Assembly (NCBI GenBank): GCA_015484845.1
Contig: WFUT01000025.1
Span: 1 to 33,329 of the forward strand
From: Desulfobulbaceae bacterium
GTDB lineage: Bacteria > Desulfobacterota > Desulfobulbia > Desulfobulbales > Desulfobulbaceae
Length of the DNA stretch: 33,329 nucleotides
Reading direction: 5' to 3'
The notes under the pieces: generated by a model
Told to the model about the DNA's origin: nothing
Seen by the model: only the letters and a program-made list of their open reading frames with translations
Databases searched by the model: none
In this document: in pieces, positions 13,381 to 33,329 of the stretch
Position numbering within the stretch: the first letter of the stretch is position 1
How the letters are laid out: the number at the start of each line of letters is the position of its first letter
Program-made: the position numbers and the translations under genes

Positions 13381-13919
13381 GCAAACGACTGGCGGAAGAG
13401 TTTCCCGGCGAGATCCTCGACACCTGTGTCCACGCGGCCCAGGTCAGCGTCATCGTCCGGCGGCAGCGGATCGTGGAGATGCTGGCCTGGCTGAAGCGGA
13501 CCGACAAGATCCGGCTCAACCACCTGATGTGCCTCTGCGGGGTCGACAACCGCGACCGGATGCAGCCGCCCCTGCAGCGTTTCGAGGTTGCCTACTCCCT
13601 CTACTCCATCACCCATGGCCACGAGTTTCGGCTCCGGGCCCAGGTTCCGGAAGAGGACCCGCGCATCGACTCGGCCACCCCGGTCTGGAAAGGCGCAGCC
13701 TGGCCGGAGCGGGAATGCTACGACCTGGTGGGCATCAGCTTCGCCAACCACCCCGACCTGCGCCGGATCCTCCTGCCCGACGACTGGCAGGGCCACCCCC
13801 TGCGCAAGGAGTACCCGCTCAAGGGGCACGACGAGTGGAGCGGCTTCACCGACCTGCTGCACAAGGTCGAGGAGCTGCGTCCCTTTGATTTCAACCCAAA
13901 TCCTGCACTTCGAAAATGA
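13362..13919 (+). CDS. nuoC: NADH-quinone oxidoreductase subunit C; last codons and stop come from the repeat element
   Basis: [36 protein letters not shown] motif. C-terminus ...[13 protein letters not shown] runs into the element at ~13898. Confidence 0.95.
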
Positions 13920-14140
13920 AGAAAAAATTTTCTTTTGCCGTATCAGCGGATTATACGAACGTGATCGTTTTTTTCGACTCACTGATCGGGTGAAGGATTT
14001 TTTTTCTTCATTTTCTCGGCCGCAGGCATTGGCAATTTTACCGAATCTGCTTCGTTATCAAGGGCTTGAAGTATTCGTATACGACTGCGCCCTTGATGCC
14101 TCGCATCTCCGGCAAAATTGCCAATTGCAGGATTTGGATA
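13898..14140 (+). repeat. Dispersed structured element (MITE-like or RNA-like), copy 1, with predicted four-helix junction
   Basis: Ends AAATCCTGCA / TGCAGGATTT; internal inverted repeats 13912-13927/14000-14015, 14019-14021/14025-14027 and 14028-14043/14110-14125; ~95% identical to 33182-33329; flanked by CAACCC direct repeats. Confidence 0.85.
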
Positions 14141-14192
14141 CAACCCGGGTGGCAACAGGACCCCGGGTCATGAACAGGAGAGGTGATCGATC

Positions 14193-28304: not shown

Positions 28305-29378
28305 TCAGATATCCCAGTAATTTTTCACCACGCCCACGGCCTGGTCGAGCGAGGCGAGTTGAAGAGATGATCTATTCGATTCTCCGAGTTTTTTCTCATA
28401 TTTTCCGTCCAGGTATTGCGGATAGCTTTCGCTGAGCCGTTCGCCGCAGAGCTCGGTCAGGACGGCCAGGGCACCCTCCTTCATTCCCTGCAGGTTATAG
28501 CCCCCCTCCAGGGTGACAAGCAGCCGTCCGTCGCAGACCTCGGCGGCCAGGTCCACCAGGACCCTTGTCATGTAGGCGAACCCGGCCGGCGTCACCTTCA
28601 TCGCTCCCAGCGGGTCGCCGTCGTAGATATCAAAGCCGCAGGAGACAAGGACCAGCTCCGGCCTGTACTCCCTGGCCATGGGCAGGATCAGCTCGTTGAA
28701 GATGCAGGCGTACTCCATATCTCCCTGCCCGCCGGTCAGCGGTACATTGACCGTGTAGCCCTCGCCCGGCCCGGCCCCGGTCTCCAGGACCGCCCCGGTG
28801 CCGGGATAGTAGGGATACTGGTGGGTGGAACAGTAGAGAACCGAGTCGAAATTATAAAAACTGTGCTGGGTACCATTGCCGTGGTGGAGATCCCAGTCCA
28901 TGATCATGACCCGTTTGTAGCCCAGTTCCTTCACTGCCCACCATGCGGCGATGGCCACGTTGTTGAACAGGCAGAAGCCCATGGAGCGGTCGCGCTCGGC
29001 ATGGTGACCCGGCGGCCGCACCAGGCAGAAGGCGTTGTCGATCTCCCCCTGGTCCAGCCGGTTGACCGCATCGACCAGGGCGCCCGCCGCCAGGCAGGCC
29101 GCGGCATAGGATTCCTCCGAGGTCGCGGTGTCGGCGTCAAGGAAATCATGGGCATGGCCGGCTGTTGCCGCCACCTTCTCGATGAGGGCCCGGGAGTGGT
29201 TGAGGGCGATGATCTCGGTTGAGGCCGGTTCAAAGCCGGGATAGAGGAAGCGGGAACCCGTGTCCTCCCGGTCCAGTTCCCGGTAGATAACCTGCAGCCG
29301 TTCCGGCGATTCCGGATGGTCGTAGCCGGGCCGGTGTTCAAGAAAGAGCTGGTTTCTGTACACTGCTGTCCTGCGCAT
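28305..29378 (-). CDS. Histone deacetylase / acetoin utilisation (AcuC-like) family protein
   Basis: RPGYDHPESPERL...RPPGHHAERDRSMGFCLFNNVAIAAWWA...IMDWDLHHGNGTQHSFY...SCGFDIYDGDPLG. Confidence 0.93.
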   Translation of the reverse strand: MRRTAVYRNQLFLEHRPGYDHPESPERLQVIYRELDREDTGSRFLYPGFEPASTEIIALNHSRALIEKVAATAGHAHDFLDADTATSEESYAAACLAAGALVDAVNRLDQGEIDNAFCLVRPPGHHAERDRSMGFCLFNNVAIAAWWAVKELGYKRVMIMDWDLHHGNGTQHSFYNFDSVLYCSTHQYPYYPGTGAVLETGAGPGEGYTVNVPLTGGQGDMEYACIFNELILPMAREYRPELVLVSCGFDIYDGDPLGAMKVTPAGFAYMTRVLVDLAAEVCDGRLLVTLEGGYNLQGMKEGALAVLTELCGERLSESYPQYLDGKYEKKLGESNRSSLQLASLDQAVGVVKNYWDI

Positions 29379-33176: not shown

Positions 33177-33181
33177 TCCCT

Positions 33182-33329
33182 AAATCCTGCACTTCGAAAA
33201 TGAAGAAAAAAATTTTCCTTTGCCGTATCAGCGGATTATACGAACGTGATCGTTTTTTTCGACTCACTGATCGGGTGAAGGATTTTTTTCTTCATTTTCT
33301 CGCCCTTCGGGATTGGCAATTTTACCGAA
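33182..33329 (+). repeat. Dispersed structured element, copy 2, truncated by the window end
   Basis: AAATCCTGCACTTCGAAAATGAAG...TTGGCAATTTTACCGAA; ~95% identical over 148 bp to 13898-14045, same orientation. Confidence 0.9.

Follow-up and report, generated by a model that had tools for sequence, protein, structure and literature searches.

An IS1380-type miniature transposable element in the nuo operon of a Desulfobulbaceae bacterium, probably built round a conserved, strand-specific module

The nuo operon of a Desulfobulbaceae bacterium carries a short structured element at the end of nuoC. The window analyzed here is the whole of contig WFUT01000025.1 (33329 bases), and the element occupies positions 13895-14138 (244 bp). 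It has no transposase gene or long open reading frame (ORF) of its own, and it is short and multicopy, as are miniature inverted-repeat transposable elements (MITEs). We consider it likely that this is a MITE of the type of the insertion sequence (IS) family IS1380, built round a conserved module that is strand-specific and independent of the transposase. The element was inserted in the last codons of nuoC (Complex1_30kDa, PF00329; 13362-13919, + strand), where it created a new stop codon; the final codons and the stop (13917-13919) come from the element. The nuoD gene (Complex1_49kDa, PF00346; 14193-15419, + strand) lies downstream of the insertion and is intact. A Desulfobulbus relative with 94% NuoD identity has the empty site, GATTTCAACCCGG (L043).

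The element is bounded by terminal inverted repeats (TIRs) of 13 bp each (CCYAAATCCTGCA). The left TIR (CCCAAATCCTGCA, 13895-13907, + strand) and the right TIR (TGCAGGATTTGGA, 14126-14138, - strand) are the 5' and 3' arms of an outer stem, P1. Enclosed by them are the P2 hairpin (13912-14015; arms 13912-13927 and 14000-14015, inner pairs 13938-13989), the mini-hairpin P3 (GCC-GCA-GGC, 14019-14027; CCCTTCGGG in many copies) and, adjoining P3, the P4 hairpin (14028-14125), a conserved core of 98 nt that is better folded and enriched in wobbles on the minus strand. The target-site duplication reads TTCAA on the left (13890-13894) and, with one mismatch, TACAA on the right (14139-14143). An original prediction from the letters of the window had named stems P1 to P4, and all of them are present at the positions it gave. 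Its bounds for the element (13898-14140) need correction, and the pairing of its outer stem is real, the stem being the transposon TIR. A short ORF in P2 (ATGAAGAAAAAA...) was rejected as a real gene because indels disrupt it in many copies.

The host assembly is a metagenome-assembled genome (MAG) of 3.38 Mb in 233 contigs and is 97% complete. Two copies of the element had been predicted; the BLASTN search that the prediction called for found at least 40, of which 38 are full length, with about 89-97% identity. The predicted second copy exists (33179-33329, + strand); it starts with CCTAAATCCTGCA at 33179-33191, not at 33182, and the contig end cuts it off. The terminal 12-mer CTAAATCCTGCA occurs 108 times in the host genome (53 forward and 55 reverse) and its reversed control 0 times. 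Flank alignment places the element ends at CCTAAATCCTGCA...TGCAGGATTTAGG plus a 5-bp duplication, and CCTAAATCCTGCA is the TIR consensus across 41 aligned copies (39 in the host, 2 in another genome of the genus). The duplication is exact in 25 of the 41 and has at most one mismatch in 36; shuffled flanks give 5.7 on average and 13 at most. Its consensus is TNNNA, with T in first position in 40/41 copies and A in last position in 35/41. The element has moved in the past by TIR-directed transposition with 5-bp duplications. The TIRs, the duplications, the empty site, the many copies and the IS1380 ISs with identical ends bear out the suggestion of a non-autonomous mobile element. The host also carries derivatives of about 150, 54 and 34 bp without P4 or P2 (among L156, L157, L158, L159, L160 and L162). 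The 150-bp derivatives lack P4, which fits a deletion across a short CAATT repeat located at the base of the hairpin; the 54- and 34-bp remnants retain both ends.

The ends are shared with the IS1380 family. ISs of this family in the same bacterial family have the identical 13-bp TIR CCTAAATCCTGCA (13/13 bp of the family consensus; L172 and L182), and both they and the element form 5-bp duplications. The IS of G081 (L172) is 1674 bp long, is flanked by ATTAA/ATTAA and encodes a transposase that matches NCBIfam NF033539 (IS1380) with 293 bits against a cut-off of 180; the ISs of G066 (L173) and G015 (L182) are flanked by TAAAA/TAAAA and TACTA/TATTA. A transposase with matching ends, as the original prediction proposed to look for, is found in same-family genomes and not in the host assembly. 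In other genomes the ends of the MITE vary in step with those of the IS1380 ISs resident there (CCCGGATTATGCAGCTC in G150 and G328). The match is not universal: in G447 the end type of the IS is a different one, shared with elements found in other genomes. These shared ends suggest that the element is mobilized in trans by an IS1380 transposase. The ISs differ from the element in lacking P2, P3 and P4, just as the element lacks the transposase gene. The P4 model R1 gave 0 matches at E<=1 in 20 IS-bearing loci, which rules out IS1380 as the origin of the hairpins. One sequence of G328 (L255), considered as an IS fragment beside a MITE, proved to be an IS, degenerate but bearing the same ends.

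On either strand, the predicted fold of the element greatly exceeds shuffled sequence in stability. RNA folding gives -99.5 kcal/mol (z -9.8) for the + strand and -104.1 kcal/mol (z -10.4) for the - strand, none of 200 dinucleotide shuffles is as stable, and the DNA-mode fold has a z of -8.2. Rfam yielded 0 matches for the window at the gathering threshold, and relaxed searches (E<=5 or E<=1, 12 loci) yielded chance-level matches only. The initial impression of no known IS or RNA family thus agrees with the Rfam result and fails for the ends, which are those of IS1380. Stable stem-loops are common in MITEs according to PMC10969869, and an ordinary MITE, that is, an IS1380 deletion derivative with hairpins as an unselected by-product, would also account for the textbook TIRs and target duplications and for the scarcity of covariation among the host copies. 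In a P4 covariance model of 13 sequences (MAFFT alignment), 16 of 30 pairs have two-sided changes, and P4 matches were found in 38 of 395 Desulfobacterota genomes and 30 genera by a search that scored at most 10 matches per genome, a maximum that many genomes reached. With 44 sequences, 24 of the 30 base pairs show two-sided compensatory changes, which 0 of 500 shuffles reach, and there are 260 two-sided cells as opposed to 68 in shuffled and 18-62 in slid controls; this alignment was fitted to the model and its figures lean toward the model, and the MAFFT alignment of 13 agrees. The covariance model advised at the outset thus revealed P4 covariation across lineages. Such covariation refutes the ordinary MITE as a full account and leaves it standing for recent single-genome spread only. 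Also against it are the ISs without the core, the presence of the same core in different TIRs and in other phyla, and the strand asymmetry of P4. We regard this explanation as very improbable.

P2 differs in sequence between lineages, and its arms remain complementary. The mean arm duplex energy is -16.8 within an element versus -6.9 between elements, with 9 of 14 past the 5% tail. In G015, from the same bacterial family, two subfamilies have unrelated P2 sequences and the same layout. P4 is always part of the module, P3 nearly always and P2 usually. Most Desulfobacterota P4 loci have TIRs and a total length that clusters at 255-258 bp, and many of them show exact 5-bp duplications; the elements span 198-266 bp overall. 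Several end types occur around the one core, five of them in Desulfobacterota (TGCAGGATTTAGG, TGCATAATCTGGG, TGCAAAATTCAGG, CGCTCAATTTAGG and TGCAACGTTTAGG). Desulfobulbus rhabdoformis DSM 8777 has 24 P4 matches, and some of its copies belong to a P4-only class whose ends are GTAAGC...GCTTAC and not TIRs (L240, L341, L352, L353, L356 and L357). In most 262-bp copies of G015 (L201-L209), the outer helix of P4 carries on its 3' side an insert of 16 nt that is missing from the 246-bp copies; G034 has a similar insert.

The core also shows a marked strand preference. P4 folds better on the minus strand in 33 of 35 non-redundant Desulfobacterota elements, by a mean of 9.2 kcal/mol (p 1e-6), and in 20 of 21 non-redundant sequences from other phyla (p 2e-6); random 98-mers of the window average 0.5 (sd 6.0), and P2 and P3 have no strand bias. 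The sole mismatch of P4 in the window, predicted to be of G-T type, is A.C on the + strand and G.U on the opposite strand only. Among 43 P4s of less than 85% identity, the + strand has 62 A.C against 24 G.T mismatches, with one near-invariant T.G pair excluded, and therefore wobbles prevail on the minus strand; two base pairs contribute 19 of the 62. A near-invariant UC/CU 2x2 loop of P4 becomes tandem G.A on the minus strand, a common motif in structured RNA. Selection has acted on the single-stranded fold of P4, on the strand opposite to +. The proposal that the ends form a cruciform finds no support, since P1 is simply the TIR and one-strand selection on P4 argues against a symmetric double-stranded cruciform. 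The other early proposal, a mobile structured RNA, is upheld as regards structure, by covariation across genera and phyla and by strand asymmetry; the folded molecule is probably RNA rather than single-stranded DNA, and we infer its function.

The main rival is a role of single-stranded DNA in transposition. A DNA hairpin formed on the lagging strand or during excision could raise the transposition frequency by recruiting the transposase or a replication factor of the host. G.T wobbles and tandem G.A mismatches are stable in DNA too, the DNA fold is itself stable, mobility nearly always accompanies the core, and P1 to P4 cover the whole element. Yet IS1380 and IS1182-like ISs are mobile without P4, and P4-only units without these TIRs exist. 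To our knowledge, neither IS1380 nor IS1182 uses single-stranded intermediates, which we count against a DNA hairpin. Overall, we find this explanation unlikely.

The module is not confined to one phylum. At E<=1e-4, a refined P4 model matches 26 of 399 genomes in the Pseudomonadota sample and 20 of 246 in the Nitrospirota sample, the phylum label of each being that of the genomes at the sample centers. These matches are weaker (28-47 bits), and 15 non-Desulfobacterota genomes searched one by one with the same model gave no match. The loop motifs are preserved in the cross-phylum sequences, many of which also have a P3 of the CCCTTCGGG type. Several of the cores are enclosed by quite different inverted repeats; tRNA genes beneath the matches were excluded at six loci. 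In Nitrospirota G1118 and G1017, ISs and elements both have GGAGCCTGTCCGA.. ends with CTA/TAG flanks. The DDE_Tnp_1 transposases of these ISs are closest to IS1182, a provisional assignment because the genes are partial and score below the curated cut-off. We read the module as carried by at least two transposase families. A single ancient RNA module (P3-P4, usually with P2) may have spread through at least three phyla, enclosed by TIRs that belong to different families of DDE transposons (IS1380, IS1182-like and others). We give this proposition even chances. In Pseudomonadota G504 (L304), the apical loops of P2 (TAGTTGTTCTA) and P4 (TAGAACAACTA) are exact reverse complements of each other, which could reflect a kissing-loop contact or a P2 that is an inverted copy of P4.

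A strand-specific fold at high copy number could also suit a minus-strand RNA that acts in trans, for example as an antisense or decoy, to limit or recruit the transposase. The core, however, accompanies unrelated transposases, which makes a transposase-specific RNA unlikely, and no promoter was seen on the outer minus-strand side; the only candidate was one weak internal match. This possibility therefore seems quite improbable.

Several observations weigh against a conserved, strand-specific RNA module in an IS1380-type MITE. The host copies show almost no covariation among themselves, and selection is consequently visible only between lineages. The strand asymmetry stems from shared ancestral loops plus variable pairs; because the sequences are related, neither the 35 nor the 21 cases are independent of one another, and the p-values overstate the evidence. 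The sense transcript of the nuo operon corresponds to the + strand, the non-preferred strand of P4, and a count of gene orientations around the copies with a crude gene caller gave no clear answer on bias. The IS1182 assignment in Nitrospirota is provisional, as noted. Finally, the host MAG has no match to PF13701 (IS1380 transposase). A resident transposase would be expected if the element were active today, although descent from an IS1380 element does not require one. Its absence may reflect either loss or a gap in the assembly, and the element is therefore classed on the basis of its ends rather than of a helper in the same genome.

In the simplest form of the RNA module interpretation, an IS1380-family transposase would act in trans and cut at the 13-bp ends, and the element would then be inserted at TNNNA sites with formation of a 5-bp duplication. 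The module would be an RNA read 5'-P4-P3-P2-3' from the minus strand. It would travel with IS1380-type ends in Desulfobacterota, IS1182-like ends in Nitrospirota and other ends in Pseudomonadota, and the RNA would reduce the cost of insertion or otherwise aid persistence of the element. One tentative version, to which we give somewhat less than even chances, is that, in the transcripts it enters, the module is bound by a conserved RNA-binding or processing factor of the host; insertion would then cost less, and the element would persist.

Several known systems come close to the element. The Chunjie MITE of Geobacter (Geotalea) uraniireducens (Chen 2008, via PMC10969869) is 235 bp long, with sizes of 178-235 bp, and has 38 full-length and 57 partial copies, one of them inside an operon. 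By its description in the accessible part of that source, which mentions no phylum-wide core, Chunjie resembles the element in size, copy number, operon copy and host phylum, and it may be a relative. MITEPye1 (PMC11578231), also compared by description only, is short, was probably mobilized via the TIRs of a named IS family, is IS1182-related and has a strong predicted RNA stem-loop, but was described from one species. GTAG- and CGTC-tagged repetitive extragenic palindromic (REP) elements (PMC3733652) are likewise dispersed palindromes that contain no transposase gene of their own and may function as RNA, but they measure 20-40 bp and have no TIRs, as opposed to 198-266 bp with TIRs and 5-bp duplications here. 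The bridge RNA of IS110 (PMC11208160) is a conserved structured RNA linked to a transposable element; it is part of an autonomous IS, which it guides, whereas the ISs here lack the structure.

MITEs in the phylum were already known; what we claim as new is the core, conserved and strand-specific, together with its occurrence between several types of ends, and the literature searched contained no description of this core. MITEs are usually seen as decayed ISs with incidental hairpins, whereas here conservation is stronger in the core than at the ends. Its phylum-wide covariation, one-strand selection and several end types point to a selected function for MITE interiors. If a single ancient module did spread through three phyla, it would be a transposon-independent RNA that hitch-hikes with some benefit to element or host wherever it is inserted. 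The core may explain a class of unannotated palindromes across Desulfobacterota, Nitrospirota and Pseudomonadota genomes, and the 98-nt hairpin, found in a cultured strain, is a defined and testable module.

Some observations concern the assembly and the surroundings of the copies. BLASTN against phage and plasmid records gave no match to the element. Contigs end inside or right beside copies in the window (33179-33329) and at L015, L027 and L123. The repeat probably broke the MAG assembly at several contig ends, and resident ISs may have been lost from it for the same reason. A 2-kb composite transposon suspected in the host genome (L155, G000 C198:24254-26883) was ruled out, as it consists of two separate P4-containing remnants that flank efp and an epmA-like gene in imitation of such a transposon. 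Elsewhere in the window, positions 28305-29378 (- strand) hold a gene with a histone-deacetylase-type domain (PF00850).
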